Assembly (NCBI GenBank): GCA_027603945.1 | Contig: JADIIU010000008.1 | Location: 1-64,000 of the forward strand | Reading direction: 5' to 3' | DNA from: Terramyces sp. JEL0728 | Taxonomy: Eukaryota > Chytridiomycota > Chytridiomycetes > Rhizophydiales > Terramycetaceae | DNA: 64,000 nucleotides | Shown here: positions 1 through 63,840 of the stretch, one piece after another | Numbering within the stretch: position 1 is the first letter of the stretch | Layout: each line of letters starts with the position of its first letter | Translations under genes and position numbers: made by a program | Notes under the pieces: model-generated | Databases searched by the model: none | What the model was told of the DNA's origin: nothing | The model's input: the letters and a program-made list of their open reading frames with translations, nothing else

Positions 1-1445
1 TAAGCAGATTCACAAAGCAAGCGGTTTCCAAAACGAATTCGCTCTTGGGTGAAACCGCCTGGACTCATTTCACCCACTCCAGCTATCCAAGTTACGGGCT
101 AAGGGTAAAAGCCAACGGAAAACTATGTGATCCAACTGTTAATCAATACTCTGGTTATTTGGATACAGCAGATGATAAACACTACTACTTTTGGTTCTTT
201 GAAAGCAGGAACAAACCTTCGGAAGACCCAGTTATCATGTGGTTGAATGGTGGACCTGGCTGCAGCTCTTTTATTGGGTTACTGACTGAACTTGGTCCAT
301 GCAATATAAACAAGGATGGGACAGGTACAGATTTCAATGAATTCTCTTGGAATTCAAATGCCAACATTTTCTTTTTGGATCAGGTGATTCCTTGTTAATG
401 TTAGCCTGTCAATGTTGGTCTCAGTTACTCTGACAGTCAAATTGTCGATACTACAGCATCAGCGGCAGAAAATGTTCATGCTTTCTTGCAAATCTTCTTT
501 GATGCATTCCCAAAGTACTCTAAACAAAGTTTCCATATTACCGGTGAATCTTATGCCGGCCATTACATTCCTGCTATTGCCAAATCAATCCAGGATCACA
601 AACACGCGATTGAACAAGGAAGCGAAGCAGGGTTGCTTATAAATCTCGAATCACTAGCAATTGGAAATGGAATAACTGATTCGCTAATTCAATATCAATA
701 CTACGCGGATATGGCTGAAGACCAAGCCTATGGCCCAATCCTTCCAAAAGAAACAGTCGACAAGATGAGGCAAGGATGGCCAGTTTGTGGAGCACTTATC
801 AAAGCCTGCTACGCATTCCCTAGTCCATATACTTGCAAACCAGCATCAGAATTCTGTGAAAATTTAACAAATGGAGACTTTGAAAAAACCAAATTGAATC
901 CTTATGATTTACGAAAACCACCTGGGGATAAGTCATTTGATGAATCTGAAATATTGATGGCCAAATGGATTAATTCACCGGAAATTCAACAGCAATTAGG
1001 AGTAGACCAAACTTTTGTTGGCTGTAATGATAAAGTCGGCGCTGATTTCAGAAAGAATGGTGATATAATGAGGCCAATAGTAACAGGTATCCCGTCCTTG
1101 TTGGAAGATGGTATTGATATTTTGGTATACGCTGGTGATGCTGATTGGAGTTGTAATTGGATTGGAAACAAAGCCTGGGCACTTAACCTTCCTTGGCACG
1201 GACACGAAGCATTCAACAACTCGAATGATACTGAATGGATTTCATCTGTAACTGGCCGTCCAGCTGGAGTCTACCGTCAATTCGACAATTTTGCATTCCT
1301 CAAAATTTACAATTCATCACACTTTGTCCCAGCAGATCAAGTACTATTTATTAACCTTAGCCCGAACACTCTTTGGAATTCATCAACAAGTGGATCAGAG
1401 GCAAACCAGTCATTTCAAAGTAAATACATGTATTTGTTTTTATAA
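1..1445 (+). CDS. Serine carboxypeptidase (S10, carboxypeptidase Y-like), 5' end outside window
   Basis: This is a vacuolar or secreted S10 peptidase that removes C-terminal residues from peptides. The frame is open from base 3 to the window edge, so the signal and propeptide lie outside. Exon 1 ends at 383, a 21-nt intron occupies 384-404, and exon 2 runs from 405 to the stop. Visible family signatures are the [10 protein letters not shown] oxyanion block, [12 protein letters not shown] across the splice junction, nucleophile Ser in [10 protein letters not shown], catalytic Asp in [12 protein letters not shown] and catalytic His in SSHFVPADQ. All triad residues are present, so it should be active. 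The C terminus (after NQSFQS) is short. Its last six bases overlap the convergent gene on the other strand. Confidence 0.95.
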
Positions 1446-2396
1446 ATTCAGGCCCAAGTATTTCATTTCTCCAGTTAGTTGGAAAGGATTGGTGGGGAAG
1501 AAAGAGTATTGTCCTATAGTGATTGAACTGGTGTAAACCCATAGAGTTGTCCCCAAATAGTTGGGTCCCAAGTTCAAATTATTGATGGTGTTGATTGCTG
1601 TTTCAACATAACCCTGGCCATTTGCAAACGTACTAAATCCATTTGCCAAGCTCTTTCCGTTCCGTAAATAATAGCTGAATTCATTTGTGCTAGCTGCAGC
1701 TGGGATTATTATCGTGTAATATATCGAAAAAGTACTTTGGATTTGAAATTGGTTAATAACTGACCTTAGTAGCTGTCCGTACTGTGCTGGACTTTCAGAA
1801 TACGCTAAGCCTCCATATAAATCATATCCATTGACAATGAAATAATTGTTTGGTCGAAACCCCGACAAGATTGGCTTGATGTTCTTTACGGGGCCGTAGA
1901 TAGAAAGCACTCTTCCATTCGGAAAGAACTTGTTTTTGCAATTATACCTGGTGCTAGTCAACAAGGGATTCATGTATTTGACTAGATTTGCTGTAAATTC
2001 AATCATTTGGGATAAGGGTTCCAAATCAAGCGCTAGTCCAGCTGCATGATTGGATTGACAAACTAACAGCACGAGTCTGTAGCCCAGCATCTGATATGGA
2101 AAGTCGTTGAGCAAAAGGGCATTGTCAAACAAATATAATACTTGTTTGACTTTTGGGATTTTCAACATGCTTGACACTGTACTATTGTTGAAAGGAATAA
2201 TCCATTTCTGGTTGTAGTCTACTGAACCAGTGTACAAATAGATGCTCGATATTACGCTGTTTGCGTTGGCGATAGTGTTGAATTTTGACAGATCAGCAAC
2301 CACTCTGCTGGTATTCAAGTTTTTCGGGTACACAAATATTCCATTTCCAAAAAGCAGCCCAAAGACAGTCCTGAGCACCAAGAACAGTTTGATCAT
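1440..2396 (-). CDS. Secreted TIM-barrel-like protein, possible glycoside hydrolase
   Basis: I do not recognise this family with certainty. The chosen start (ATG at 2396) gives a hydrophobic signal peptide beginning MIKLFLVLRTVFGLLFG; the upstream extension lacks an ATG. The roughly 318-residue protein shows spaced hydrophobic beta-strand-like segments (SSIYLYTG, QVLYLFDN, GLALDLEPL, RVLSIYGP, YFIVNGYDLYG, LGTTLWVYTS), the rhythm of a (beta/alpha)8 barrel. A D-x-E pair in GLALDLEPL recalls the catalytic acids of GH18-like enzymes, and several N-x-S/T sites fit secretion. It has no intron and is convergent with the carboxypeptidase. Function is inferred from fold appearance only; a structure prediction would decide. 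Confidence 0.6.
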   Translation of the reverse strand: MIKLFLVLRTVFGLLFGNGIFVYPKNLNTSRVVADLSKFNTIANANSVISSIYLYTGSVDYNQKWIIPFNNSTVSSMLKIPKVKQVLYLFDNALLLNDFPYQMLGYRLVLLVCQSNHAAGLALDLEPLSQMIEFTANLVKYMNPLLTSTRYNCKNKFFPNGRVLSIYGPVKNIKPILSGFRPNNYFIVNGYDLYGGLAYSESPAQYGQLLRSVINQFQIQSTFSIYYTIIIPAAASTNEFSYYLRNGKSLANGFSTFANGQGYVETAINTINNLNLGPNYLGTTLWVYTSSITIGQYSFFPTNPFQLTGEMKYLGLNL

Positions 2397-2680
2397 TGGA
2401 GTTTTGAAATTAAATTCGAGGTCTGTCACCTCAATAACTGACAATGTGGTGGATTACCCGCTGCAGGAATAGCTTCTCTAGTGATCTACCAAACCCATAT
2501 CCGAAACAAGGAATCATTTAAATGGGATTGATGACTTGGCAATAATTGTACCCAAGAGCAAACCACGTAGCTGTTTCGGTATTGCCACAGCAGATTCCTG
2601 ACATGTAACAGTAGAGTCCTGACATGTAACCGCACAACATCAAATATAAATCAACATAAAAGTATGTATGCACAAATAAC

Positions 2681-2685
2681 AAAAA
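2681..2685 (-). terminator. Pol III T-run after tRNA-Gln(UUG)
   Basis: Read on the minus strand, five T residues follow directly after the tRNA-Gln 3' end. This is the only T-run that can end transcription of the tRNA-His/tRNA-Gln pair, because the 5-nt spacer between the two tRNAs has none. Confidence 0.7.
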
Positions 2686-4353: not shown

Positions 4354-7300
4354 TTAATTAAAAGGATTTGGATTCCCAGCAGGTCTAGGATGAGATGTTG
4401 GTGGTGGACCAGGTCTGAATCCTTGAGTTGGTGGAGGTCGGAACGGTTGTGCTACTGGAGGACCGCTTGATGGTGGAGGTCTACTTACTGGCGGGCCAGT
4501 TGGTAGCGTGTTTGGTCTTGGTGGGTTCCCAGCAGCTGGTGGCCGAGATCCAACCACCGGCATTTGGTTGAACTTTGGTGGGCTTTTTGGAGGATATCCA
4601 GGTCCAGGATGAGTTGGCGGAGGTGCACCATGGTGCGCTTTTTGAGCAGGCAGCGGTTTCTGTTGAGGAGATTTTACGTGGTGAATACCCAAGTTTCCAG
4701 AAAGTTGTGGTGGATTTGGTCCTGGGGGTTTAGATTCAAAATGCCCATTAATCCCGTTTTGTGCTACCGGAGGAGCAACAGAATGCGCACCTGTCTTTGC
4801 TATGGGCTGTTGCATTGTTGCTGGAGAATGTCCAATTGGTGGGGGACCTACATTTTGTACTGGCGGATAATGCAAAGTGTTTGGATTGGCTGCAAATGGA
4901 TCCACAGCGTGGGAAGGTACTGGAGGCGGGGCAATCTTTGCAGATTCAAAATTACTTGGAGTATTTGCAGGGGCCAACACTGGGGGAGCTGTCGATAGAG
5001 ATGCATCATTTGTTTTTGGTGGAGACTGTAAAATTGGTTTCGATTGGAAAATATTATTCACAGGAGGTGCATTCGGTATTGGAGGTGCATTAAAGCTACC
5101 TGATGTTGGCTGTGTATTTGTAACTGGAGCTATATTGTTGGGCAGTGGAGGTGCGCCATAGTTGTTGGAAACCGGAGGTGCTCCATAGTTGTTGGAAACC
5201 GGTGGAGCGCTATAGTTGTTGGAAACCGGTGGAGCGCTATAGTTGTTGGAAACTGGAGGTGCGCTATAGTTGTTGGAAACTGGAGGTGCTCCATAGTTGT
5301 TGGAAACCGGTGGAGCGCTAAACACTGGCGGAGCACCAAAATTGTTAGATCCAGGAGGAGCTCCAAAGTTACTCAAAGGCATTGGAGGTGCGCTGTAATT
5401 GCTCAACGGCACAGGAGGAGCTCCAAAGTTACTCCCGGTAATCGGAGGTGGTGCAATAGCCGTTGATCCACCAATACTGCCTCTTTGTTGGGGAACCATT
5501 GAGTGGGGAGCTGGAGAAATAGCAGGTCTAACAAGTTTTTCAAGACCATCAGCCAATTTTTTAATTCCAACAATCCATTGTCCAGTGGCAGTAAAGTGAA
5601 ACTTTATAAGATCGTGCTCAACTTTTTGGGCAGTAGCATAATCCCCCTGTTCCAAAGCTAAAGATTAAAAAAAGCTACCTTTTGAAAATGAAGACAACTG
5701 GGTGATCACTCCTGGTTCCACCTGATGACTGTTCATTTGATCAAATAAAATTTCTAATTTCTTGTGCCATTCAGAAAGATTCTTTTGGTCTTCCAGCTAT
5801 AATCAATTTAAATTTACACTCTTTGTTGAGCTATACAGCTTCTCCCAAAGTCTAGTAAGCGATTCATAAATCGCCTTTTCCACTGGATTGGTGATCTGAC
5901 TTCGGTCATTTACCGCTACAATTAATAGTTATTACGAGCTTTTGGTTGAACAGGAGGGGGCGGTTGTGAAACAACAGAATCAGCTCTTTGCGGTAATGGG
6001 AAAGTAAAATTCTGAGTAGTGTTTGGGGCTACAAAGGTCGGTGGTTCATAATGAGCATCTGCAATCGGTGGAGCATGTCCTGTAGAGTTTACCTGGCTAG
6101 CTGAAGTAACTGGTGGCGCAGTGTTATAATTTGCTTGTGGAGGTACCCAAGGAGTAGCAGAAGCTGTTTGGGGAATCGGGTTAAAAGTAGGTGGCTGAGA
6201 AGCGTATGTACTAGATACAGGAGGTGCACCGGTAAAGGACGGAGTGTGTGACTGCCCATATTTGTTTACCGGTGGGTTGTACGAATTTGCAACTGGCTGC
6301 GGATATGGGCTAGGAGGTGGGTTGTACGAATTTGCCGCTGGAGGAAATGAAGAAGGAGGGTACTGATTTGCAGGCTGAGATTGATATTGATAAGGCTGAT
6401 TGTACTGTGAAAAGCGACCTGGATCTGAATTTTGCCAACTATTCGCTGGGGTTGCGCTGCTTGCGTGGAAGCTTTGGTATTGATTAGGAGCCGCCCTAGC
6501 CTTTTCAGCGGCTTCTTTTTCCCTCTGCAGCTTTTCTCCATCAAACACTTGCACTCTTTCAAATGGGAACACTGGGGATTGTCCGTTTACACTTTGCTTA
6601 TAGTTGAACGATGCATATACCCTGTCCCTAAGTATACCTACGTCAGGCAATGGTTTTGAAGGAACATAGTGCAGTGGCACTTGTTCCAAGAACCTGTATG
6701 CAACATCAAGTTTGTTTTGTGTTGCAGCAGCATGTGCGTAATCAATAAACAAGTCATACAAATCGGCAAGGGTATAGTTGTCTTGAGGGTCTTGCAATAC
6801 TAAATCTTGATCTTGATAGCTGATTGCTTGTCTAAATATTGAAATCTTTTCAATCAAGTTGACTAATGGAATATTGTCGCCCACAGATCCTGGTCTTGCC
6901 GTCGAGAGTCCCTGGCACCATAACGAAACTACCTTTTCTAGCTCTCCAGCGCCAAGGTAACATAGACCAGCAACATGCTTTCTATCTGGCCCAGATGAAA
7001 CTACTAATCTGTTTCCCAACGTTGCAAAGTAATGGGCATATTCCTCAGGCTTTGCATAAGTACACACCACAGCCAAAAGCTCTTTCCATGATTCGTTTGC
7101 ATCCAACTTTGCGTTCTCGACAACATCTGTCAAGTCACCATTGTAAATATTTTCAAGCACTCTGGAATAAGGCCGGACATTTGAAGTCTTTTTGAAATAT
7201 TCCATCTGCACTTTTTGAATTAATTCAGGGCCGCCATAATAGGACAGCATAAAGGCATCAGCCATGCGATTGGACGCAATGCACACGTTTACTGCCAAGT

Positions 7301-8994
7301 CAAAATCGCCTACAATAACTGCTTTAGTAATAATGGCGTCAATAGCAGCTTCTTCAGTCTGCTTTCCAGAAAATAATGAAAACTCTTCTGCAGGTTGCGC
7401 TTCAGGGTGATTTTCTGAATCTTTCGATACGCCAATATCCAACTTTTGAAGAACAGCAGATAACCGTTCATCTTTTTCAAATGAAGCATCAAATCCAAGG
7501 AAATCTCTCATCAACTCTGTGGAATTTGCTGCAAACAAGGTTTTCATAAATTTCCACACATCTTTGTCCCTTTCTGACTTTACAAATTCTGAATCTTTCA
7601 TATAATCACAATATTGCGATGTAACCTCTGGATTTGCACTTTGAAGTATAAATTCTAATTGGGAAGTCCTGAATACAAACTCTTCGTTCAGTGGTATTGA
7701 TTTGATGGATATCTTTGACTCGTGCGTACTATCAAAAATTGCTAACTTCCCTCCAAATCCCCATACTGCACCAACAGACTTTCTGAGCCACTTTGGTGGA
7801 TGAGGCAAAGTAAATACAGGCTGTTGCACTCTGTGATTGCTATTAGAAGGAACCATCCCTATTTGCGAAAAAGGATCATTGAGGTCAATTTCTTGGTGAA
7901 CTGGAGGTGGAGGTGAGAAAATATCGTCTTCTGGATGATTACTTGCTCCTTGGATCGAGTGAACCGAAACCCTTCCATCGTAGCTAGCCACTACGCACAA
8001 ATCTGGGTTTCTTGGACACCACTTGGTATCAAAACTCCAGTTTGCCGAGTGAACCAAATCACCGATTGGAACTCCTTTCATAGTGTCCCAGACAATCGTT
8101 CTGTTATCTTTACCACACGAAAGCAACAGCTCGGAATCCTTTGGACACCAATCCATAGACAATACTCCTTTCGAATGTCCACTTAAAGTCTACAATTAAA
8201 CAAGATAACCTTCTCAGGCGCACTTGCATTTCTGAGATCCCACATCAAAATTACTGGATTTGCGTCATCGTCGCTGCAAGTCAGCAATTGTGTTGGCTAT
8301 TATTAATTATAGGGCTACAATGTCAGGATTCCAAGAAATGGCAGTAATTGGTTTTCTTCCTCCGGGATTGTTCATTTTTATCAGCTCTTTGCGGTTACGT
8401 AAATCCCAAATAACGCTGTATCCATTTGAAGACCCAGATGCCAAGATATAAGATACTTGTTTGTTCCAGGCCAAACAAGTAACATCCTCCAACCTTTGCG
8501 ATCTTGCTCCAGGCTCATATGGACTATTGATTTGATTCATATCCCATATAAATATCTAGATGAAATATAGGCTACCTCTCCATCGGATGCTCCAGATGCC
8601 AGCAAATTGGTTGTAATTGGGTTGAAATCCAATCCTCGGACTGGCCCAGACTGCTTTGCTACGTGGAATGGCCTATCAGATTTCTTCAGCAGGGATTTGG
8701 TTTCCCATATGTCCAACTCGCCATTTTCTTTGCCGCATGCTAGATGAGTTGCTCCCCATGCAAGACGGTTGAATCTATGTCAAATCAACCATACCTAGAG
8801 TTGCTGGTTATTGAATGTAGCTTCAGCATATCCTTGTTTGTAGAGTTGAGATTCAGTGAGTAAATTTCTAGTTCTGCTTTTGATGAGAATGATGCGTCAA
8901 GCGCTCCAGCAACTGATCCTAAAGCTAATAGCGGCTCTTTTTCCGTAGCAGGTGACCAACTAGTGGTGCTCGTTTTGTCAATCCTCTTAATCAT
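4354..8994 (-). CDS. SEC31: COPII outer-coat protein Sec31, with an unusual second Pro-rich tail
   Basis: Outer scaffold of COPII vesicles leaving the ER, pairing with Sec13. The spliced model (seven introns of 20-22 nt) gives 1498 residues. The start is the ATG at 8994 ([15 protein letters not shown]), which aligns with known Sec31 N termini. Order: seven-blade WD40 N-terminal domain (motifs such as [21 protein letters not shown]), alpha-solenoid, first Pro-rich linker, then the conserved C-terminal helical domain (ending [17 protein letters not shown]). Oddly, a further Pro/Asn/Tyr-rich tail of about 390 residues follows this domain, including six 9-residue repeats; in yeast Sec31 the helical domain is at the extreme C terminus. 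That tail is in the same exon. The gene is divergent from the formin. Confidence 0.95.
5158..5319 (-). repeat. 27-bp minisatellite in the SEC31 tail (six units)
   Basis: Six in-register 27-bp units begin at 5158, 5185, 5212, 5239, 5266 and 5293. Each contains ATAGTTGTTGGAAAC (plus-strand reading) and encodes a nine-residue unit, [S/G]-A-P-P-V-S-N-N-Y. Degenerate relatives (NFGAPP, NYSAPP) flank it. The frame is kept, so copy-number change would only alter tail length. Confidence 0.9.
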
Positions 8995-9286: not shown

Positions 9287-12200
9287 ATGAATAAGAAATT
9301 TCAGTATGAATTTGAAAAAATGATGGTATTATTGCAATAACCAAGGATGAGCGTAATCTTCCCCAGAATGTACGACAAAGTTTGAATTCTCTGGACCATT
9401 CAGCCAAATTTGAATTACTGGAGCAGCATAAAAGGGAATCTAAAAAATCATTGTGGAAGAGACTTTCGTTTGGAGGCAAGACTAAATCTATGGAAAGTTC
9501 AACCGCTTCCACGTTTGGCAGCAATATTTCCAAGATGGCTGAAAATGATAATCCAACAGGGGATGCAGCAATTGAACGGCAATTTGCTCATTATTTGAAT
9601 AATTCAACTTTGTCAGAGGAAACCAAAGCGATAATGTCGAAATATGATTTCAAACAAAAGAAAATGTATGTGGACAAATTTCAAAACGAGGATATCGACC
9701 AAGCATTCAATAAAGTCTTGGTAGCTATGCAAATGAATGAGACTGAGCGGATGAATTTGTCCAAGCAGAGAAAGGAAGAAAAGGTGGCGATAATACAGAG
9801 ATACAACGAACTAGTCAGCAACAAAGAGCGGTACAAAAACAAACCACTCCCATCACATACAGCGGCACAGCCGACATATTTTAATTCAGATATCGGCCAG
9901 GATCTAAGGACGAGTCAATCAGAATCAAGGAATACGATTATTCATTCAGATTCACCAACATATCCCCCGCAATCAAGACTGCAAACTTCAACTTCGGAAA
10001 GTAATCCTAGCAACCCCCCTTCAATATATTCTCGTTCGACTTTTGAAAGTAATCGTCCTCCTAATTCTCCTATTTCCAAATCCAGCTCGAAATCGAGCTT
10101 CAAAGGAGAAAGTAGAGAAAGGATACTGAAAAACTATCAAAGAGAGTCTCAACAGATAGAAAATAAAAAATCAAATGAAAGGATAGATACAAGAAGGTCT
10201 TTGAATACCTCAGCCTCTTTTCAACATTTGCCAAAAGAACCATTGCTCGTGGTCCCTGAACTTCGCAAAAGGGCTGGGAGTATAGGGACAGAAAACATAT
10301 CCAATCCAAGTGCCAATCTACCCTATCTTGGCTCTCCAAGGATAGAATCAGGAAAATATCCTGAAAATTCTCCAGAGTGGTTCATCATCAATTTAGCAAA
10401 CAGGTATTCTGATACTAAAGTAGAAATATATCTCTAAAAACACTATTCAGACACTTGACTTCGTTAAGGTTAAAACTGGCTATGAACAATGATAGCTTTC
10501 TAGTAAATTTCATTAATACCGTTATATCCTACAGTAGTACCGTCGGGGTCAATGGAATTTCAACGCTAGAGATTTCCTTGGACAGAGTGTGCACTCCGTT
10601 TTATCAGTCAGAAACTCTAAAGCGGAGACACTACGAAAGCAACTTAAAAGCAGGAAAACTGGACACTAACAAGCCGCTACCATCAACACCATGGTATGCA
10701 GACTCTATATTACCGGACGAATTGAGATTGGAGGTGATTAGATGTGTGGATATAATTATGAAAAACGACACTGGGATGACAGCCGTACTGTCATCAGGGG
10801 GATTGCTGCGACAAATATTATGGTGCCAGGCTCTTCCAAAGCCGATGATTCAAGCGCATATCTTGCAAGATAAGCGGGCGACAAATGCCTATATAGAATT
10901 ATTATATACTATTTCTGGTATAATCGGCCCTGCTTGTATCGTAGACGACAACCTGAAAAATGTTATTATCCAGGTTGTACACGAACTTCAGAAATACCAA
11001 AACGAATCACTGCCATTTTACTTTTTGGTAAATTCTCTTGCGAATCCGATTTTCCCCACTGACAAGCGAGGATCAAAAAGACACTCGTACGTCAACCAGT
11101 CTATGCTATTAGATTATTCAACCATTTGGCTCTATAGAACTCAAACCATGGTGTTTTTCAATGGCTTTGTATCATCATCTGACTCGATATTCGAAAGATC
11201 CAAATTACGAAAAATGCTGGAAGCCTGTGGGTTATACAAAATCATTAGGGATTTAATGTCAAAGTCCCCCTCAGAAGATTTTATGGTTCAAGCCAATTCA
11301 TATCTTGTTGACAGAGAAAACGATTTAAAAGCCCAAGAAGGAACCTTCAAGATCAAAACCGAAATGGTGGGAGATTCACGGGCAATTGTAGAATCTTTAT
11401 TTCAAGCCATTTCCACTTTTCCTAATCCGAACATGGCAACTCACTATTTGACTATCACCCTGCAGAATTTGTCTAATATTTTCAAAAAACTCAAAGAAAA
11501 AGACCGCAATACTGGTAAAGACGACTTGCAAACAAGAGAAACACATGCAAGAATATTCAGTCTAATAGAAAATTCCACCAGATTTTTGTACACTTCCATA
11601 GACAATTTAAACTTTGAAAATATGACAAGCAACCAGCTGTCGGAGAATATCGAATCAGAATTTCTAATAGCAATTGAAAGCGAATTGGGTTACCCCTTGC
11701 GAAATTCAAAGCCTTCAAACAGCTTGACTGGGTCTGAAGAAACATTACAGCTTCGCGAAAGAGTTTACGAAGTGGAAAGGAGAAATAATGCATTACTTCG
11801 AAAACTTAACGAATCTAGTGCTTTTACTCGAAACTTTACAGACACTTCAGTTTTTGATTCTTCTGAACAGATACCTACAAAGGAAAGCAGAAATAGATTA
11901 GAATTAAACATTCCATCGGATACTTTCGGTTCCACCTTATTTGACTCTATACCGTCCGATTTATTGGCTGATGGAGCCATTCCAGTTGATCGTAAACACG
12001 CACGCAGTAGAATATCAAAAACTGCGGGGATAGGTACCATTTAATTAATCCAGGCCGATTATGGGAAGAGATTCAACGGTTGGAAACTCTGGTTGAGATT
12101 CTCCAAAACAAGAAGCGAGCTGACGCAGAAGCAGCTATGTTAAAGAAGGAAGAATCGATAGTTCCTGCTGTTCCAAATATACCTCCTCCGCCGCCTCCGC

Positions 12201-29243: not shown

Positions 29244-29276
29244 TGTAGAACTGCTGCCTGCTTGATGTAAATAAAT

Positions 29277-30874
<1,598 letters not shown>

Positions 30875-33123: not shown

Positions 33124-33246
33124 TAAAAATGTAATTGCTATTAGAATTTGGACCTAGAATTGAATCGCCAATCAATACATCTTGAACTCCAGACTGGTTT
33201 ATTCGTACAGATATTTATTGCCAGATTTTTACACGCTCAGACAACA

Positions 33247-49464: not shown

Positions 49465-49508
49465 GACGGTACTAAAGAAGGAAACGTCACTTTTAAAAAC
49501 CTATTAAA

Positions 49509-50621
49509 TCATGAATATATTAATACTGCGATACCAACCCAAATAGAAAGTGCCAGAAGTGGGCCATGATAAATAGCGGAATTTTGAATACTTAATTTCA
49601 ATTTTCCGCTGGTGTCGTATTGGTAACCGGGTGCAGCTGCTTGTGGAATAACGCCATTAACCACTAGCATTAATAGTAATATTACACTCTGTTGGTTGGT
49701 TTGGTTTGGTAGCAGAATAACCTGGGTTGGAGGCAGAGTTTGGCCACTTTGGAACCACATTATCGTTACTATCATAACATTCCACAGTAATAGACTTGAA
49801 ATAAGCAGAATAAGAGCTAGAGCTATCCGGAAAATGTACAGCACCGCCAGCCCAGGAATTTACTAGTATTAATTAAAATTACTGGCTTGACTCCAAATGC
49901 TAATTTGAAATTTCCCAGCCCTGTCAGGGAAGAATTTCTCTGTCGCTGATTTCGGATCAGTGGCCAACGAACTGTTCTTGTAGTAAGTACGTACCAACTT
50001 ATCATCAATCATAAAATTGATCAAATCGTGTTTCCAGTCGATGGTATAGTTGTGATACGCGGTAATATCGTTGGATAATCGATGAGTGGTGCTCCGGAGT
50101 CCGTATTGAGGAATACCGCGGAAATAGACGTTGGTTTCGGCATTGGTCGGATCTGAGCCTAGTAATTCCCAATCAATTTCGTCGCCTCCATCTGGATTTA
50201 CCACGCTCAAGTCTACGTTTGGATCTGGAAGTTGGGGCCCCATTGATACAAATGTAATTACTATACCGCTAACTGCTGGTGCTTTCAAAATAGCAGAAAT
50301 CCGTCCATATTGCATAAATCTAGTGGATGACATTCTAGTTCCAATCGGATCAGCACCAGCCGCGTTTGGCGTAATATCTAACCTTGCCCCTTCCCCAGGA
50401 ATCAAATGCACGTTTTGGGGATTGTAGTCGATAGTCATATCGTACCTGGAGACATCCAAGCCTTTAATATCAGTCATGGTAGGATGATTCGCCATGTCAA
50501 AAAATCTGGATGGGTCCGAAAAATTCACAGTTTGGGACAAGCAGTTGCCAATGTACTCTGGGGAGGTACTTGGGTCAGGGGTTTGAGCAATTATCTTTCC
50601 GAGTAGAATTAAGCTGATCAT
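49509..50621 (-). CDS. GPI-anchored GH16 wall transglycosylase (Crh-like)
   Basis: Probable chitin-glucan cross-linking transglycosylase at the cell wall. The start at 50621 gives a signal peptide (MISLILLGKIIAQ). Catalytic block DEIDWELLGSDP has nucleophile and acid/base in E-I-D-x-E order, preceded by MQYGRISAILKAPAVSGIVI and followed by TIDWKHDLINFMIDD. A 20-nt intron after SIWSQA leads to NSWAGGAVHF; a second of 22-28 nt leads to a tail whose end is a GPI-type hydrophobic segment (LLALSIWVGIAVLIYS). About 356 residues. It is strong evidence for a fungal-type chitin and glucan wall at some stage. Confidence 0.9.
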
Positions 50622-50922: not shown

Positions 50923-52526
<1,604 letters not shown>

Positions 52527-52636
52527 TGGGAAACAATATATTCAGAATAGATCAGTAAATGCAGCAACTAATAAAAATTTTACTATGTATAAATTTAATA
52601 ATCCAACACAACCAACAAATCCTTGGCTTGCTATTG

Positions 52637-55063
52637 TTAAAAATCGATTACTTTTGCAACTTCGTAAGATAATGTACCGACTTTTTGCTTGATGGCGCGA
52701 TCGCTCGGGGTCTTTATTATTAGATCGTTCAAGTCTAATAATTCGTTGCGGATATCACCAAGGACCGCAAGAACATCATCGGCATCTGCCATTGCATCTT
52801 GATTCATTTGAGGAGATATATCCAATGTTCCTTGAGTTTCGTATATTATATTGTCCATACAAGTTGCAATGCTATTGATAAACTTGGTAACATTATCAGT
52901 TGGAGAATTTTGCTTGATGGCAGCCAGCAAATCTTGGATATTATGTGCAATAATGTCGGTCTGTTCTTGCAGGTAATCCTAGTAATTAAAATGAAACAAC
53001 CTTTAGCTCAGGCAGTTCAAACGGAGGCAACTCTTCATTGGTATATGCTACAGATTGTCTCATGGTGTCTCTTTGGGAGCTGACCGGTTTGTTTGTTTTA
53101 GCAGGCGGAGGCTTTGACACCAACTTTAGCAAGTCCAGCAAATCAGCAACACAGCCTGTCAAGTACTCGATTTCCTGTTTGATTTCACCTGAAGTGTCGT
53201 ACTTGGCACTTCCGGAAGCATGCTCTTTTGCGATACCCATCAAATGGGTCAGAGATTCAGATAGCTTTCCTTTAGAGTCTGCCAAATCGTCTTTATCGGC
53301 ATTTGAAACTTTAGGGTCGTCTTCTTTTTGTTCGCAATCTTGGGTAATTTGTTTGCAAGTCAACAGCAAGCTCTTCATAGGGCCAAGAACCGAAACCGGG
53401 TTGCTGTTTTTGGTAGAATCAATTAAATCCTTGGATATTTTCTTGAAAGTCGACAACAAATCAGTGGCTGCTTCATCTCTTTCTGTTCTGTCGCTTTGTG
53501 CAGGAGAAACTATATCTTCCCTCTTTGGAGAGAGTACTTGCTCTTTTCTTGGCGACATTGGTTTTTCGAGGGGGGCTGGCGAATTTGAAGCAGATCTAAT
53601 AGGAGATTGGTAAGCATTCACAGATGTTCTGGCTGCACTTTTCTTTTTAAATTCTTCCTGCATCCTCTCCATGTCCTTCTTTAGAGAGGAAACTTCGTTT
53701 TCTGCCTTTGATAACTCGCTCGCTAACAATTGTTTGTTTGCTTTCAGTGCATCTAGCTCGGAATTGGAGGTTTCAATTTGCTGATTGAGTACTTGCACAT
53801 CTTTGACCAAAGCAGCAGAATCGCTGCGGATATTGTCGAGAACTTTTTGCTGGTCGTCGAAATCATCTTGAAGTTTCATATATTTATCATCTTGCTCTCT
53901 TACACTAATCTCCAAATCTTTAGAAATCTACAATTAATAAGTATGAACTTGTTGCTCTCTGTCGAAATTTTCTTGCAGCAAATCATAATCTCTTTGAATC
54001 TTTTCCACCTTTTGTTCCATATCCAAATTTGAGGAATCCAACGCTTTATAATCCTGCACATAAGAAACTTGGTACCTTTTGTAGTTTTCCATAGTCCAGC
54101 TTTAGTTTTTCATAGTCTTCACTCAATTCAGCGTTTAATTGCTGCAATTGCGAGATTTCAGTTTGATATTTGCGGGAATCATTATTCTTTGTAGACATTT
54201 GAGTTTGTAAATTCTGGCTAGAATTTTCTGCTTCCTTCAGTTTCTTTTCCAACATTGCAATCTTGAATTCGTAGTCGGATTGGATTTTGGCCATTTCTTC
54301 TTTCATTGCTTCATTATTCTGGGCACTGTTATTTCCGTCATCGCTCCTATACGAAGGGATTCTGGTATTTGGGTCTCTGGAGCGTGCTCTCTGACTCGGT
54401 GCTCTTCTGTTTTCGACAGATGGGTCTCTTCTTCTTCTTGCTCCAGGCTCGCTAGCAACTGCGGCATTGCGAGTCCTTTCAGATCGCTCTACAGGTCTCT
54501 CTGGCGGTCTTTCACTGCGGTCGGGACGGCTATTTCTTTCAGAATTCTAAATTAACGAAACAGTTACTTCTCTTCTTCCAGATATTACTCTTTCAGTTTC
54601 TCTTGGAGATGGAGAATTGGAAATTGGTCTTGGTGGCTCCACGTCCAAAGCCTATGGTAAAATAGAAAATACCCCGTAACGAGCATTAAAGTCTGAAGCA
54701 ATATTCGGAAATCTTTTCTCAATTTCAAAATATAATTGAGCTGCTAGTTCCTTGAATCTATTTTCTGGCAATGTCGCCATTTTCTGTCTAGCTTGATTTC
54801 GCTTTGGTGCTAAATCTGTTCGGATAGGTAAAAATGGCACTAGCGGTTATTTCTGAATTACAGTCTTTTGAATCGTTCAATCGCCGATTTAATTCATCGT
54901 AAACATCCATAGATACATCCAGAAATTGTTCTGGTGGCAGTCTATTAATTCTGGACATTGCTGATGTAGGTCCCATTGAATATCCCTGATTAAAATACGA
55001 TTCTAAATATTCTCTGAATAGTGCATAGTGTGCTGCGAATGTTTCCTGGTCTCTACTCGACAT
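52637..55063 (-). CDS. SPA2: Polarisome scaffold Spa2-like protein
   Basis: Polarity scaffold that, in yeasts and filamentous fungi, holds formins and MAP kinases at growth tips. Six introns (21-22 nt); 765 residues. Two Spa2 homology repeats at the N terminus: RLPPEQFLDVSMDVYDELNR and, rebuilt by a 22-nt intron, LPFLPIRTDLAPKRNQARQK followed by RFKELAAQLYFEIEKRFP. A basic, Arg/Ser-rich linker and a long coiled coil follow, then a C-terminal Spa2/GIT1-type helical domain (LLSTFKKISKDLI to the end). The start at 55063 precedes ETFAAHYALFREYLESYF. With the formin it forms a likely polarity module. Confidence 0.92.
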
Positions 55064-56812: not shown

Positions 56813-57040
56813 TCATTGCAGTCCATTAGCAACAGATTTCAAATTGGTGAATTCTTGATCGATTCTGCTCAAGTCATTCAATGCAGTTTGAACTTGCGGA
56901 TCGTTTCCACCATTAATTTGGGATAATTGGCGGTTGATATCATCGACATCATCTTGCAATGTAGAGATTTGGTTGTTGATCAAATCCTTGTTGCTTCTGG
57001 CAAAGACAGCGGCTAATAAGACTACAAATTTGAATTGCAT
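56813..57040 (-). CDS. Small secreted helical protein, HsbA-like fragment
   Basis: 75 residues: signal peptide MQFKFVVLLAAVFARS, then amphipathic heptads (ISTLQDDVDDINRQLSQING, LNDLSRIDQEFTNLKS). It resembles the first half of the longer proteins at 61373-61828 and 62185-62730, so it is either a short paralogue or truncated. No Cys. Confidence 0.7.
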   Translation of the reverse strand: MQFKFVVLLAAVFARSNKDLINNQISTLQDDVDDINRQLSQINGGNDPQVQTALNDLSRIDQEFTNLKSVANGLQ

Positions 57041-57532: not shown

Positions 57533-60344
57533 ATGAATCCCGATCAATATTTGTATCAGCAGCAGCAGCAATCGGATGCAATGCATGGATATGAAAATCA
57601 AATGTTTGACCGACGAAGTTCCATCATGTCTATTCCAGACTATAATTATCCAGCAGAAGAGCCAGCGAGAAAGTCGTCAGTGTCGAAATCAGGTTCTACA
57701 AAGCTATATGCGTTAAGAATAGCGTCCACCCCTGGAATTTATTCTAATTGGAATTTAGCGAAAAGTTTAATTGACGGTTGCCCAGGGGCGAAATATAAAG
57801 GATTCTTTACTGTCGAAGAATGCATGCAATTCATATGGGAACAGTTCCCTGCTTCCACATTTACAAAGAATGAGCAGGGAGATTATATCATGGATGATCC
57901 CGAACCAGTATATCATGTAATTGCAAACTAATTCCAGGTAATTGAAGAAGCCAGACTAAAGAAAGAAAAGAATTCGGGGCTAATGATAGACGACGATTTG
58001 TCTACCTTTGATCCGAAAGATCCGCAATGCACTCAAATTATCAAATTGTATTCCCAAAACTCTGACTTGAAACTCATTTTGAACGATGAGCAAGTGCACG
58101 CTTTGAACTTAATCCGTAAATCGGAAAATGTGTTTATTTCCGGAGGAGTAAATACCATTAACAATAGAAAATGACTGGGAAAGATGTCTTGTTGGCGCAT
58201 GTATACGAACACTTGGCAAACTCGAAAAAGTATTTTCATATTACCACTGCGTCAGTTATTACTTCGCTAAACAGCCCAATTAATCACACACTAGGATGGA
58301 CTGGAATGGGGAAAGCATTAGGAACGAAAAAGCAAATATTGAGTAAAGTAAGAAAAAACACACAAGCTAGAAAATGGTGGGCTGATACAGATGTGATTAT
58401 TGTTAAGGATGCATCTCTAATGTCTGCATTTTTGCTAGATATTATGGACTTTTTAGGAAAAGAAATTAGAAAAGATACACGTCCATTTGGTGGGATTCAA
58501 ATGATTCTTGTTGGAGACAGTCATGGATTAAATCCTCCAAATGTATCCGCTGTGTGCTGTCCAAATTGCGGCCAAACCCATAGGATTGGGGGGATCAACT
58601 TTACCGCAGTATCGACCACCCCTGGATCTTTTATCACTTGCAATAATGATGCCTGTGGAACCTTGTTCTTAAATACGTGGATATTGTATCCGTTCGAGGC
58701 TTCATGTTGGGACGAGGCTAACTTTTACTTTTTGAAAATGAAAAAGAGTTACGAACACGACACAAACCTCGCTACATTGTATACTGAGCTTACCAAACAA
58801 CCTCCGATATCCGATAACGCTAGACAGATGCTATTGAATGCCAGGAAATCTATTAATGACCAGGTAGCTTGAATTTAATGTAGACGGTATTTATATGCCC
58901 AACTTTTGAGGAATCTCAAAAGATGAATGAACAAAGATTGCAGGAGCTGAATGGAGAATCGCTCAAGTATGAAGCACAGGACACTGTTTTGAATAACTTT
59001 GATTTCTCGTCCAGAGCCCAACAAAAAGACGGGCCAACCGATGAGATATTGTGGTTGAAACGAGAAGCAAAAGTATTATTTGTAGACAGACACCATCCAT
59101 ATACGCAATTGGGTGTTGTTGTAGGGTTTGTACAACCAACCCCCGAGGATCTGAAACAAGCTCTATCATCTGTTGCTGGAAAGAATATGAAAATGATAGA
59201 AAATTCAATTACCGAATGGCTAAACAAGTATTCATTGTTGCCCCAAGTTCGCGTCTTGAGTACGGGGGAAATCAAAACCGTAGCATGTAAAGCTTGGGTG
59301 GTTAGGTCCAATCGCAGAGCTGTAGCGTGGAGGGTTCAGTTGCCTATTCGATTGGCATACTCTGTTGCGCTCCACAGATCTCAGGATTTGCAATTAACTT
59401 CTCTTACGGTAACCCTCTTTTAATTTTAGCTTGCGCCAAGTATGGAATGGGCCTCTGGACAAATGTACATGGCTCTACTGTTGGCTAGGTCGTACGAGTC
59501 GATTTGTATAGAATCGTTCAATGAAAACTCGTTTCTTGGAGATAAAAGGGTTTTGGAATTTGAAGCTGCAGCGAAGGAAGGAACTGTCTGTAAAGGTGTT
59601 AAATCAAACACATTACCTGAAAACTTTTTGAGTAACCCAAATGTGTCGCTGAAGAGGAACTCTGTTGTATCCTTGCAGAATGCAAATAAAAAGCGAAGGC
59701 CATCGAAACCAATGGTAGCACCAATGAATAGCGGAATGGGAATGGAGAATACTATGCATATGCCACTGAACGATCCATTGCTTCTTCGGTACCAACAGCA
59801 GTTATCTCAGCGTAGACATTCGTATCAGCCACTCACATCGTACCAAGAGCAGCAATACGCATGGATGGCATCGCAGGCACCGATGATGAATCACGGAATG
59901 CCTCAACAAGTAAGCAATCAAAACTTGCAACCAACCCGACAGAATGAAAATGTCCTGAGTCACTCTCCAAATCTAATGCACTCTGGCCAACAGCCTTTGC
60001 ATACACTAGCCATTCCAGAGCATTTCCCCAACATTAATCAAAAGGAATATCAAATGCCAATTAGAAGTAAAATATCCAGATTGGAAACTAGTATTCCCCA
60101 TGCGACAGGGCCAAAATCCGCCGGCACTGTTGGCCAATCATTCATGTACAATTCTATGGGTCTTAATCAGCAATTCCTCCATCCAGTCCTGGCAAAAGCT
60201 GAAACTCATATGCCAATGCCAATAGTCAATGAAATGCAGCAAAATTATCAGCCCCCTGATATCAATACCCAGAATCCTCCCCCTTCAGAGCAAAATAGCG
60301 GATATGCCAACCCTAACAATTGGCAGCAGTGGAATCAGTCATGA
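57533..60344 (+). CDS. RNase H1 N-domain plus PIF1-like protein with degraded ATPase motifs (pseudo-helicase)
   Basis: 909 residues, four introns (21, 20, 20, 21 nt). After a Gln-rich start, residues about 60-105 form an RNase H1 N-terminal (viroplasmin-like) hybrid-binding domain: YALRIASTPGIYSNWNLAKS, CPGAKYKGFFTVEECMQFI. Then a PIF1-type SF1B core: LNDEQVHALNLIRKSENVFI leads to Walker A G-G-K-M-T-G-K-D (Ser/Thr replaced by Asp). Walker B reads DVIIVKDASLM (D-E to K-D), motif III ILVGDSHGLNPP (Q to H), the RQ of motif IV is lost (KKSYEHD), HKSQG is HRSQD, and VALSR is MALLLA. A Cys cluster (CCPNCG ... CNNDACG) sits in the core. A Met/Gln/Pro-rich disordered tail of about 250 residues ends it. 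Frame is intact over 2.7 kb, so it is a maintained non-canonical protein rather than a pseudogene. Confidence 0.9.
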
Positions 60345-60417: not shown

Positions 60418-61042
60418 TTACCACCAATCAATTAGCCCCAGTCCCTGTTCTGCGCAACTGGCATAGATGGTGTAAGGTGCTTTCCTATTCACCAATGTTT
60501 CATCAGTATCTGATTTCTTCATAGGTCCAACATCTATAAACTCTGCTTGCTCCACTCTAAACCGTATCCAATTCCCAGGATCCATAAAATATTCATTATC
60601 GTCGTATTTCCACACCCAAGCTCCTTCCTCGCGATTGCTACTATAAACTCAAACTTACAACACCGTACCGTCCATCAAATACTGCGGAGGAATATAAATA
60701 TCATCAAAAAACTTTAGTGATACTCGTACCCCTTTAACTGCATCACAGTCCTTTACCAATCCCAAGAGAACCTGTCCTTTAAATGGTCTGAAGACTACCA
60801 TCCTGAACACAACTGTATTAAAAAAGAGCACCTTTACATTGATATGATCCGTCCTGGCAAGCGTGAATTATGGGATCAGTTGCAGAGTCAATATCGTACA
60901 CTCGCAAACAAAGGCCAACATTATGCAGGACTTTGTTTGAATATTTTCTATTCAATTCATCTTCCAGAGCTTTGATTTGAGAATATTTAAATGATGCTGG
61001 CTGTACCCTGACTAAATCTTCTATCGTCTCCAGCACAAACAT
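60418..61042 (-). CDS. RPC25: RNA polymerase III subunit RPC8 (Rpc25)
   Basis: Stalk subunit of Pol III, homologue of Rpb7, involved in initiation. Two introns (19 and 21 nt; the second could be 18); 194 residues. Starts MFVLETIEDLVRVQPASFKY; middle VVFRMVVFRPFKGQVLLGLV; OB domain FFDDIYIPPQYL; end APYTIYASCAEQGLGLIDWW, which is diagnostic. Confidence 0.95.
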
Positions 61043-62184: not shown

Positions 62185-62730
62185 ATGTTCAAAACCATTG
62201 TACTTATCCTTGCCGCTTCTATTGTTGCTTCCCCTCTTCCGGCAAAGAACGAAAACAAGAACAACCAAGTAAATAACCAAAACAACAACAACCAAAACAA
62301 TAACAATGGCGGCGGAAATGGCCAAGTTAAATTTGATTTGAACGGTGCTCAGAACGACCTCAGCCGTTTACAAGATGATATCAGTCAACTGCAAACCAAC
62401 CTTGGTACAGCTCAAGGTGGATCTGCCCAAGATGCCAGCCGGCTTCAAGATGTCCCAAACAGACTAAACTCGCTCAATCAACAATTGAGAGACTTCCAAA
62501 CATCCCTCACCCAAACTAACGGAAACGTTAATGCGGACCAATTTAACACGCTTCTTGCCCAATTCCAGTCTATCAGTGATGGATTCAATGGTCTTGGAAG
62601 AAGCACCGATAAAGTTTCTGGAAAGGATTCAGCTAGCGACAACAGTTTGCAGTCAACTGGCAGCAGCTTCAAGACCGTGTTTGATGACTTCAGAACTGTA
62701 AGAGACAACTTGTTGAACAAGCTCCAATAA
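62185..62730 (+). CDS. Secreted helical protein with an Asn-rich spacer, HsbA-like
   Basis: 181 residues: signal peptide MFKTIVLILAASIVASPLPA, an Asn/Gly-rich low-complexity stretch (NNQNNNNQNNNNGGGNGQ), then the same helical repeat family as 61373-61828 (QNDLSRLQDDISQLQTNLGT; RSTDKVSGKDSASDNS). No Cys. Probably a paralogue from tandem duplication with an added spacer. No intron. Confidence 0.78.
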   Translation: MFKTIVLILAASIVASPLPAKNENKNNQVNNQNNNNQNNNNGGGNGQVKFDLNGAQNDLSRLQDDISQLQTNLGTAQGGSAQDASRLQDVPNRLNSLNQQLRDFQTSLTQTNGNVNADQFNTLLAQFQSISDGFNGLGRSTDKVSGKDSASDNSLQSTGSSFKTVFDDFRTVRDNLLNKLQ

Positions 62731-62779
62731 TTGTTTAAACTGTATAAATGAATAAATTATCTTCCACCCTATTAAAACT

Positions 62780-63840
62780 TTATTTGCTTCCCTTTTTCAA
62801 TGCAGGGTCTTCAACAAGGTCAAATTCAATTACAAACAAAACCTTGTTACTTGATTGCGCTTTGGCCATCAAGCGCAATGGCTGATTATTCAAGTATCGA
62901 AGGATATTAATGTTGATTCCTAGGGACAAGTCAAAAGTATTCAAGTCAATAAATGGTGCGAAAATCTACTGTTAATTTGAAATACTTCAAAATTGTAGAC
63001 ATTGTTTGGAGAGAAAATGGTGTGCTTTCGTGTCTTTTGTTTTTGGTAGTGCTTTCTGCGCTCTGCTATGGCATCAGAAGCAAAATCCGGTTGTGTAGTG
63101 TGCAGCAGCGTGTTATTTTCTTCTAGTTCTTTGCCGTCTCGCCATATCCAATCTCCCAAAATATCTGATGGTGTTGGTTTTGAAGTAACAGAATTCATAG
63201 CTTGAGACTTTTCTTGTTGTTTGGTTGCGGTATATTTAGGATCTGCGCTGTTTAATAAAATAAGGGAATCTTTAGATTTAGCAGAGATTTTGTCAGACAC
63301 TTCCTTTGCTTTAGGATCAAGCGGTGCAGCCCCAACAACCGGGGTAGCAGCCTTGACTACATTCACAATATTCATCGAGCACAAGATTGGCGAATACAGC
63401 CAAGGGGTTTCTGAATAAATATCAACTTGTAAGGCAGGATCGATCAAATTCGCAAATTTAATTGCAATCCAAGCTCCAGTTGGCGGTGTACATTTTCTTT
63501 CGAATTCTGAACCAAATAACAAATCATCAGCAGAGTATTCCTTGAATTAGCGTAAAAATACATGTTTGAATCTTCCCTGTACTTGTAACGCAAACAATCT
63601 CTTTTTACTATCGAAATATCCAGCACAAGACTTTGGCTCCTTTCCATCCGGAGTGATCCCTTTGAAATCTTTGATTCTAACGAGCACATTTCCTGTAAAC
63701 AAGGGTGAATCTATGAAATGTGGATTAGCCTCGTCGTTTACACTGGCAATCGCGAGACTTTGGATGGAAGGGCCTATTCGTACTTGGAGCTTTCTTCCTT
63801 GCACCGCATCCTCTCCACTCGCTCCGAAAATGTATTCCAT
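62780..63840 (-). CDS. DUF1769 family protein
   Basis: Fungal family of unknown biochemical role. Two introns (21 and 20 nt); 339 residues. Conserved blocks: FALQVQGRFKH joined to EYSADDLLFGSEFER, then DIYSETPWLYSPILCSMN, LGDWIWRDGKELEEN, KHTIFSPNNVYNFE and the end RYLNNQPLRLMAKA, VLFVIEFDLVEDP. The Lys/Ala/Ser-rich linker in the middle is lineage-specific. A second copy begins upstream at 63893. Confidence 0.88.

Follow-up and report, generated by a model that had tools for sequence, protein, structure and literature searches.

Very likely, the nuclear GT-AG (U2-type) introns of Terramyces sp. JEL0728 have been reduced to a minimum length imposed by two nearly constant distances, and are recognised as one unit by the major spliceosome. 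Their lengths, mostly 19–22 nt, are close to the shortest known to be removed by any spliceosome. The introns come very probably from the nuclear genome of this chytrid, a free-living fungus, and the data support the proposal of an earlier note on this DNA that a fungal-type gene set carries spliceosomal introns of narrow, near-minimum length. The analysis covered a 64-kb stretch, the window, and a further 200 kb of the same genome (264 kb in total).

With a gene finder whose prior on intron length was flat from 10 to 150 nt, 98 introns were called in the window, 89 of them 19–22 nt long, in agreement with the roughly 95 introns of this size that the earlier note had counted; two of the 98 calls are false and one had a misplaced boundary. 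The four introns it had named (32121–32140, 32785–32803, 15899–15917 and 21427–21446) were called at exactly these coordinates. The peak persists beyond the window, with 283 of 325 introns at 19–22 nt in the window plus 200 kb, 57 of 66 at loci outside the training set and 340 of 391 in a larger call set. Seven decoy dinucleotide pairs, trained identically on the window plus 200 kb, gave 9–18 calls of 19–22 nt versus the 283 for GT-AG. Even a simple tally of GT..AG strings, limited to those beginning with GTAA, GTAT, GTGA or GTAG and containing TAAY or TGAY, has its peak at lengths of 19 nt (36 strings) and 20 nt (38 strings), where six shuffles average 18.5 and 19.7. Calls of 28–150 nt do not rise above noise (41 for GT-AG versus 65–80 for 13 decoys); a few introns of 24–30 nt are present, as had been noticed, and one of 29 nt is backed by protein alignment. 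All spliced models are indeed divisible by three, but the finder keeps the reading frame by design, so this carries no independent weight; the evidence lies in the protein alignments.

Such alignments back 37 GT..AG introns in eight genes, 36 of 19–22 nt and the one of 29 nt. The spliced model of Sec31 (4354–8994, minus strand), with introns at 8775–8794, 8556–8575, 8297–8318, 8190–8209, 5916–5935, 5797–5817 and 5658–5678 (20, 20, 22, 20, 20, 21 and 21 nt), is identical across all 1498 residues to the protein deposited in GenBank for Terramyces sp. JEL0728, which backs all seven; the GenBank models of this isolate are predictions too, and the junctions were also compared with other chytrids. 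In the flagellar transport protein IFT81 (22700–24910, minus), all eight junctions (24636–24656, 24112–24130, 23996–24015, 23824–23843, 23641–23660, 23492–23511, 23031–23049 and 22853–22872) align gap-free to Boothiomyces sp. JEL0866. Among nine further chytrids compared for IFT81, B. macroporosus is gapped at two junctions. Two annotated Boothiomyces proteins show gaps at the same junctions only, and others do not; judged from these sequences, the tiny-intron state may be common to the family Terramycetaceae. Some gene models of Terramyces relatives look damaged at short-intron sites.

TSNAXIP1 (42053–44291, minus) has introns at 43955–43974, 43537–43557, 43393–43412, 43212–43240 (29 nt), 43007–43025, 42741–42760 and 42386–42404, supported by the GenBank protein of the same species and by relatives. 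The fifth was first called at 43010–43025 (16 nt); with the next AG it becomes 19 nt, as in GenBank and three relatives. A 12-nt call in this gene (42056–42067) is false, being read through in the GenBank protein of this species. Solved structures cover both introns of proteasome subunit beta 2 (31816–32440, plus; 31822–31841 and 32121–32140, 20 nt each), both of RNA polymerase III subunit RPC8 (60418–61042, minus; 60813–60831 and 60638–60658) and, gap-free, both of the Rad6-type E2 (32632–33123, plus; 32785–32803 of 19 nt and 32884–32903 of 20 nt). The second false call, of 75 nt (33118–33192), fuses Rad6 with the next gene across its TAA stop (33121–33123); that short gene (33190–33463, start approximate, plus) carries a 19-nt intron, 33286–33304, from the gene finder only. 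In a katanin-like AAA ATPase (29412–30874, minus), 30063–30082, 29940–29959 and 29763–29781 align to solved AAA ATPases, with 30802–30820 and 30614–30633 lying outside the aligned region. For the SNF1/AMPK kinase (50923–52526, plus), six of seven introns (50999–51018, 51252–51271, 51465–51485, 51614–51635, 51991–52012 and 52290–52310) align to solved AMPK; the poorly aligned 52081–52100 was left out of the count.

Domain matches add to this picture. Peptidase_S10 (positions 44–420 of 420, 310 bits) runs across both junctions of a serine carboxypeptidase (237–1423, plus; introns 384–404 of 21 nt and 1341–1360 of 20 nt), and in COG6 (33632–35599, minus) COG6_N spans 35400–35419 and COG6_C (1–462 of 462) spans 34907–34927, 34556–34577, 34399–34418 and 33983–34001. 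Snf7 (2–169 of 171) crosses the first two introns of a Snf7/CHMP protein (28561–29265, plus; 28660–28678, 29072–29090 and 29230–29248), GRASP55_65 the last two of a GRASP protein (24937–26316, minus; 26197–26216, 25954–25973 and 25721–25740), and UBX the second of a p47-like SEP/UBX protein (26351–27437, plus; 26689–26708 and 27231–27250). GIT_SHD and GIT1_C mark a GIT/Spa2-like protein (52595–55063, minus) with introns 54840–54861 (22 nt; 54810–54861 in another run), 54652–54672, 54547–54567, 54054–54075, 53928–53948, 52979–53000 and 52631–52651. RRM_1 is found in an RBMX2/Ist3-like protein, so named by eye and a likely splicing factor (47061–47802, minus; 47691–47709), Ribosomal_L22e downstream of a 28-nt call, 46590–46617, in ribosomal protein L22e (46575–46977, plus), and Glyco_hydro_16 in a GH16 model probably fused with its neighbour (47839–50621, minus; 49863–49882, 49664–49685 and a doubtful 26-nt call, 49501–49526).

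The remaining introns come from the gene finder. They lie in a CDGSH iron-sulfur protein (15684–16071, plus; 15899–15917, 19 nt, with zf-CDGSH upstream of the junction), a metallophosphoesterase (16102–17570, minus; 16810–16828 and 16957–16975, with Metallophos on the first 316 residues) and a mitochondrial carrier with three Mito_carr stretches (20662–21542, minus; 21427–21446, 20 nt). Genes named by eye are formin-like (9535–13908, plus; 10404–10423, 12034–12053, 12302–12320, 12966–12989 of 24 nt, 13260–13279 and 13451–13470), WD40 (13941–15653, minus; 14202–14222, 14694–14713 and 15092–15110), S4-like (21668–22513, minus; 22142–22162), a membrane protein (39810–40917, minus; 40679–40697, 40346–40365 and 39991–40009) and helicase-like (57533–60344, plus; 57917–57937, 58148–58167, 58864–58883 and 59409–59429). 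A coiled-coil protein (37091–38201, plus) has 37932–37950, and further gene models have 31549–31568 (30965–31785, minus), 38725–38744 and 38511–38529 (38248–39003, minus), and 63541–63561 and 62966–62985 (62780–63840, minus); a model with no Pfam match (1440–2396, minus) contains a doubtful 36-nt call, 1700–1735.

Removing the short segments restores conserved proteins, at the aligned junctions and in two splicing factors. Unspliced Slu7 gives two partial matches, one of 139 bits and one of 104 bits that contains two internal stops, and the spliced model one full-length match of 289 bits; U2AF65 rises from 252 bits with four internal stops, below the curated cut-off of 310, to 334 bits, above it. 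In two gene copies that were compared, indels are confined to introns or intergenic stretches. That the gene models are automatic, with two false calls and one shifted boundary in the window, speaks for the segments being artefacts of the gene finder or indels from assembly or sequencing. For the class as a whole that account is refuted and has almost nothing left to recommend it: the segments combine GT..AG ends with a branch motif at fixed spacing, the decoys fail and the junctions fit homologues. The finder does demand GT..AG ends, but the decoy pairs fail and 37 such introns are alignment-backed.

The branch-like motif described before the AG is real: of the 348 called introns of 18–23 nt, 288 contain T[AG]AY, versus 244 of 1423 uncalled GT..AG strings of 19–22 nt, and the motif emerges without any splice-site matrix. 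In 255 of 348 introns the presumed branch A is base 14 or 15 of the intron and is followed by 5 or 6 nt; branch points were assigned by motif alone, and in 29 of the 348 the best-scoring A has at least 9 nt after it. The same four spacing cells hold 95 of 1423 uncalled strings and 70 of 103 introns in a set built without splice matrices. Because the 3' matrix of the larger set extends over the final 10 bases of the intron, it may make the 5/6 spacing look tighter; no matrix includes the 14/15 spacing. In the matrix-free set, 100 of 115 introns of 15–40 nt have a branch A 4–8 nt before the end, and among these 100, lengths of 19, 20, 21 and 22 nt were seen 21, 37, 22 and 9 times versus 17.4, 35.0, 25.6 and 8.2 predicted from two independent spacings. 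In the larger set the two spacings show a slight negative correlation (−0.14; Fisher p 0.13), and 21-nt introns number 55 versus 74 predicted, a shortfall that may reflect detection bias against multiples of three. At the 5' splice site, GTAATT starts 54 of 348 introns and only 18% have G at +5.

We infer from this sequence pattern how splicing would proceed. U2 snRNA would locate a clear yUNAY branch motif whose A stands 14 or 15 bases from the first intron base, with 5 or 6 nt, final G included, after it; the two distances, added independently, yield 19, 20 and 21 nt, with 22 nt arising by a one-base stretch. The 5' splice site would be reduced to GUA(A), the usual G at +5 being gone, and the region pairing with it would directly abut the branch helix, so that the intron is recognised as a single unit. 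The 3' splice site would mostly be the first AG past the branch, where a pyrimidine tract would have no room, and a U-rich stretch would instead lie upstream of the branch. The earlier note's suggestion of sterically overlapping recognition thereby gains spacing numbers, and its steric side stays a probable interpretation.

Removal would fall to the major spliceosome, of which five of the six splicing proteins sought (Prp8, SF1, U2AF65, Slu7 and Prp18) and U2 were found. Prp8, U2AF and SF1, in which a search for losses had been advised, are all encoded. Prp8 has a PROCN domain of 774 bits in an open frame (about 1985 residues covered, the gene end lying outside), the spliced SF1 model a helix-hairpin, a KH domain and two zinc knuckles, and the spliced Slu7 model its full domain. 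U2 snRNA is full length and intact (140 bits over 1–192); it reads GTGTAGTATCTG, and its intact GUAGUA matches the yUNAY motif. This match, together with the GT-AG ends and the same short segments inside the splicing-factor genes themselves, makes it extremely improbable that the segments, very short and uniform as they are, represent non-spliceosomal elements such as ciliate-type eliminated DNA or translational bypass elements.

A standard spliceosome could nevertheless be insufficient, with parts remodelled (for example shortened U1/U5 or changed branching factors), along the lines suggested for Stentor and observed in the Bigelowiella nucleomorph. U1 and U6 snRNA were not found with standard models or patterns, nor did the genome search match RED (RED_N), though such searches cannot show absence, those for U1 and RED having given no signal anywhere. 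The mostly absent +5G implies that U1/U6 pairing must differ. Set against the PROCN, SF1 and Slu7 domains, U2AF65 above its cut-off and full-length U2, we regard remodelling as possible but unlikely. As to why the introns are short, deletion bias alone, discussed for mikrocytids in the portion of that study considered here (PMC10245619), would erode introns neutrally until further loss stops splicing, with no special recognition mode. The genome is compact (15.0 Mb, with 80% coding and 1.54 introns per kb of CDS in the 264-kb sample, extrapolating to about 18,500 introns), and such erosion is compatible with the two-distance explanation; alone, it gives no reason to expect two separate distances to be fixed on either side of a conserved branch motif, and we consider it evenly poised. 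The chances seem equally balanced for the fuller form of the two-distance reading, in which nearly the whole intron set of a free-living fungus sits on a 14/15 plus 5/6 lattice of two independent rulers around a conserved branch motif, at or near the physical limit of a normally composed spliceosome, the one here looking complete in the parts sought except for RED.

The nucleomorph and heterotrich comparators named earlier hold, but the list lacked mikrocytids and Encephalitozoon cuniculi; the comparisons here draw on parts of the respective reports. The Bigelowiella natans nucleomorph has 865 introns of 18–21 nt (PMC6461891). It shares with Terramyces near-identical lengths (27 of the 340 introns are 22 nt, one above its range), the GU start and the branch-binding GUAG kept in U2, but the portion of the report used describes no obvious 5' motif past GU, no obvious branch motif, shortened U1, U2 and U5 and a relict nucleus (PMC6461891). 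In Terramyces the branch motif is clear, the spacing is fixed, U2 is full length and the nucleus is an ordinary one; the motif, the U2 and the 15-Mb fungal genome rule out nucleomorph-type introns. In Stentor coeruleus, with introns of 15–16 nt, the 5-nt tail after the branch A, the GUA 5' site and most splicing factors kept are as in Terramyces, and its single most abundant intron starts GUAAUU, the Terramyces GTAATT; as far as that account goes, the ciliate's branch A lies at 10–11 with no strong branch consensus (PMC9505925), unlike the fungal 14–15. Lengths of 19–22 nt and a branch A mostly at 14/15 exclude heterotrich-type introns. The parasites Mikrocytos/Paramikrocytos have 224 introns of 16–17 nt, with only 17–19 splicing proteins identified in the part of the study cited, and share the extremely narrow range (PMC10245619); length and the splicing proteins found, together with about two introns per gene model, set Terramyces apart from this strongly reduced type. 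The microsporidian E. cuniculi is likewise fungus-related, with short introns and a clear branch motif, but the report, as far as consulted, gives a wide range of 22–76 nt, 37 introns in all and a reduced spliceosome (PMC3629993).

A literature search, which did not extend to the genome paper, found no published description of such tiny introns in Terramyces. Intron surveys that drop lengths under 30 nt exist (PMC10639083), and a 30-nt floor would miss nearly all introns of this species. It is still debated what the minimum size of an intron is and whether tiny introns call for a spliceosome that is stripped down or remodelled; the known cases compared here come from a relict nucleus, from parasites and from a ciliate. 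With introns of 19–22 nt, a clear branch motif and most of the sought factors present, and with chytrid relatives and yeast available for comparison, Terramyces would make these spacing limits directly testable.

Introns were called with a gene finder that covered the two strands, joined exons across any GT..AG of 10-150 nt with equal probability per length, and was trained on long open frames from the window and from twenty further 10-kb segments of this genome (264 kb in total). Run over the 264 kb with neither a splice-site nor a branch model, it returned 125 introns, 103 of which were 17-23 nt long, with a mode of 20 nt. With a 10-column matrix for the 5' end and an 11-column one for the 3' end, and the length prior still flat, 283 of 325 introns measured 19-22 nt, with 80, 133, 48 and 22 introns of 19, 20, 21 and 22 nt, respectively. 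The earlier note had described such a narrow length distribution, putting the number of 19-22-nt spliceosomal introns in the window at about 95; there, the same model (matrices, flat length) called 98 introns, 89 of them in that range. At held-out loci outside the training set, 57 of 66 additional introns were again 19-22 nt.

Decoy dinucleotides did not reproduce this peak. The untrained model called 60 GT-AG introns of 18-22 nt vs 4-11 for each of 13 decoy pairs, and full retraining on seven decoy pairs gave 9-18 calls of 19-22 nt out of 176-227, compared with 283/325 for GT-AG. A model-free count of GT..AG strings containing a branch-like motif also showed an excess at 19 and 20 nt. By contrast, at lengths of 28-150 nt in coding regions the untrained model made 41 GT-AG calls, below every decoy (65-80), so that longer introns cannot be discerned there as a class; the counts cover coding regions, introns in untranslated regions being invisible to the gene finder. 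Among the 51 calls outside 19-22 nt, ten had an overlapping, frame-keeping alternative of 19-22 nt; all calls were kept unchanged. One 42-nt call at a sampled locus (L020:4717-4758) splits exactly into two adjoining 21-nt GT..AG units, each with a branch-like motif, and may represent back-to-back introns with no exon between them, or stepwise splicing.

Eight gene models were checked against proteins. Of the 43 introns called in them, 36 were supported as called, one was supported with a shifted acceptor, two were false and four lay outside the comparison. The 37 supported introns comprise 7, 19, 7 and 3 of 19, 20, 21 and 22 nt, respectively, and one of 29 nt. All seven junctions of Sec31 were supported, the spliced protein being identical in all its 1498 residues to the one that GenBank gives for Terramyces sp. 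JEL0728, as were all eight of IFT81, which aligned without a gap throughout to the protein of Boothiomyces sp. JEL0866; among nine more chytrids compared, B. macroporosus was gapped at two junctions and several others had a small gap near the first. In TSNAXIP1, the Terramyces sp. JEL0728 GenBank protein (100% match) and its relatives supported six of eight calls as made, including the 29-nt intron, extended a 16-nt call to 19 nt by use of the next AG, and showed a 12-nt call to be false. Six of seven SNF1/AMPK junctions fell inside stretches aligned to solved structures, three of five were supported in the katanin-like ATPase (the remaining two lie beyond the aligned region), and protein alignment supported 2/2 in both RPC8 and PSMB2. 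Two of four calls were supported in the Rad6 model; of the other two, one belongs to the following gene, and the 75-nt call in this model is a gene-fusion artefact. Pfam profiles (carboxypeptidase, COG6, Snf7, GRASP and p47) span twelve more junctions. Splicing also merged two partial Slu7 profile matches into one full-length match and raised U2AF65 from 252 bits, under the family cut-off of 310, to 334 bits.

The introns share a compact anatomy. In 285 of 348 introns of 18-23 nt the best-scoring branch-like A is base 14 or 15, and in 283 it is followed by 5 or 6 nt (4-7 nt in 313). The four core combinations of these spacings account for 255/348 introns vs 95/1423 uncalled GT..AG strings of 19-22 nt. 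The branch motif is TTAAT, CTAAT, TTAAC or CTAAC in 225 of the 348, and an additional AG between branch and 3' end occurs in 19. The 5' site reads GTA in 90% with A as the next base in 58%; only 18% have G at +5. The interior is 75% A+T, T being commonest at +5 to +9 (43-60%), before the branch. In the matrix-free set, 70 of 103 introns fall in the core, the two spacings are unlinked (Fisher p 1.0), and summing them as independent quantities closely predicts the length histogram. In the larger set they are weakly anticorrelated, with 55 introns of 21 nt seen vs 74 predicted, a shortfall that perhaps reflects the finder's poor view of stop-free 21-nt introns, or selection. An in-frame stop is present in 52 of 57 introns of 21 nt vs 63% expected; this excess resembles selection against stop-free introns of 3n length, but the finder is nearly blind to such introns.

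Two contigs, C199 and C111, carry near-identical 3.1-kb stretches with the same two genes, representing haplotypes or a recent duplication. The copies differ by substitution at 16 of 2354 coding sites and 4 of 619 intergenic sites, and at none of the 119 intron sites. Two single-base indels lie within predicted introns, giving 21- and 20-nt versions of each (L001:1513-1533 vs L002:1513-1532 and L001:2165-2185 vs L002:2152-2171, in the corresponding sampled loci); intergenic indels are of 1, 2 and 9 nt, and coding indels are absent apart from a 13-nt overhang at the stretch end. The intron indels sit where introns predict them, in a sample of only two events.

Losses in Prp8, U2AF and SF1, for which the earlier note had proposed a search, did not materialize: all three are encoded, as are Slu7 and Prp18, with Prp8 seen without its end and Prp18 as two exon matches. 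The spliced SF1 model contains a helix-hairpin domain, a KH domain and two zinc knuckles. Across the Slu7, U2AF65, SF1 and Prp8 models, 14 of 15 introns are again 19-22 nt; the remaining one, in SF1, was called at 15 nt. Yeast Slu7 is dispensable where the branch sits near the 3' splice site, and its retention here is notable because 4-7 nt follow the branch A in 313 of the 348 introns. The U2 snRNA matched the model from end to end (140 bits) and contains GTAGTA, the sequence that binds the branch; Rfam otherwise returned only tRNAs in the window and, in 246 kb of other sampled loci, only this U2. For U6, a family search gave two weak matches (27 bits, under the cut-off) within two near-identical coding-gene copies, which are not U6; a first sequence pattern had no match, and a second had one match with one mismatch, as did its reversed control, and is unconvincing. 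Neither U1 nor RED (RED_N) was found, but the control genomes were silent too and absence is not claimed. An RRM protein (RRM_1) at window:47061-47802, with a 19-nt intron, resembles by eye RBMX2/Ist3 of the spliceosomal RES complex.

Terramyces, which we take to be a free-living fungus, is placed by NCBI in the Terramycetaceae (Rhizophydiales, Chytridiomycota), and the IFT81 gene fits a flagellated one. The closest IFT81 matches come from Boothiomyces, at 90% and 88%, and from Globomyces, at 67%, with no Terramyces IFT81 among the best 120 listed. The genome comprises 231 contigs totalling 15.0 Mb. In the sample, 107 of 150 gene models have introns and the density is 1.54 introns per kb of CDS, which extrapolates to about 18,500 introns genome-wide. 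By eye, three small proteins of the window that resemble one another (window:61373-61828, 62185-62730 and 56813-57040) look secreted and contain repeats rich in leucine and aspartate; none of them received an intron call. Another secreted-looking protein (window:45473-45925) has a long lysine-rich KKGKKAKKAKKGKK repeat, then an alanine/proline stretch.

Fourteen of the introns are already implicit in the two Terramyces GenBank proteins compared (Sec31 and TSNAXIP1), and the raw fact is thus already in the database. A search of titles and abstract openings found no published description, although an earlier mention is possible, the genome paper, reportedly by Amses and others in PNAS, being outside that search. 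A large survey left out introns <30 nt and so would miss those of Terramyces (PMC10639083). Short introns are described in other systems. Stentor introns are 15-16 nt, with the branch A at 10-11 and a 5-nt tail; the tail and a reduced 5' site are shared with Terramyces, but in Stentor the loop is shorter and the branch motif weaker (PMC9505925). Bigelowiella nucleomorph introns are of the same length (18-21 nt), but no obvious motifs mark them and the snRNAs there are shrunken (PMC6461891). Mikrocytids have 16-17 nt introns and a strongly reduced spliceosome (PMC10245619), and E. cuniculi introns span 22-76 nt (PMC3629993). Very short introns are therefore known; those of Terramyces stand apart in combining a clear branch motif with two fixed spacings and with the presence of most of the splicing factors tested, in a fungus.

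Relatives were assessed by counting alignment gaps in annotated proteins that lie ≤4 residues from Terramyces junctions. Such gaps made up 2/2 in B. macroporosus IFT81, 2/5 in Boothiomyces JEL0838 TSNAXIP1 and 5/5 in Boothiomyces JEL0866 TSNAXIP1, one of the last due to the 16/19-nt error in the Terramyces model, and 0/25 and 0/9 in Boothiomyces Sec31. In more distant chytrids they were 1/2, 2/4, 1/2 and 0/2 (IFT81), 0/10 and 4/10 (TSNAXIP1) and 2/42 (Sec31). Judged from these alignments, the pattern is suggestive only: the gaps at or near several junctions in three Boothiomyces GenBank proteins (P0002, P0242 and P0243) suggest mis-spliced models, but not in the genus's Sec31. The parts of the literature examined yielded no intron lengths for other Rhizophydiales. 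Because the Boothiomyces support is mixed, no more than an even chance is given to the proposal that a two-ruler lattice of 14/15 plus 5/6 governs nearly the whole intron set and is possibly common to Terramycetaceae.

With the branch A at 14-15, the U6-pairing bases near the 5' end would adjoin the U2-pairing bases around the branch, and the 5-6 nt that follow would finish the intron. The 5' site, branch and 3' site are probably recognised together as a single short unit, which would account both for spacings that vary by no more than a base or two and for the rarity of introns outside 19-22 nt.
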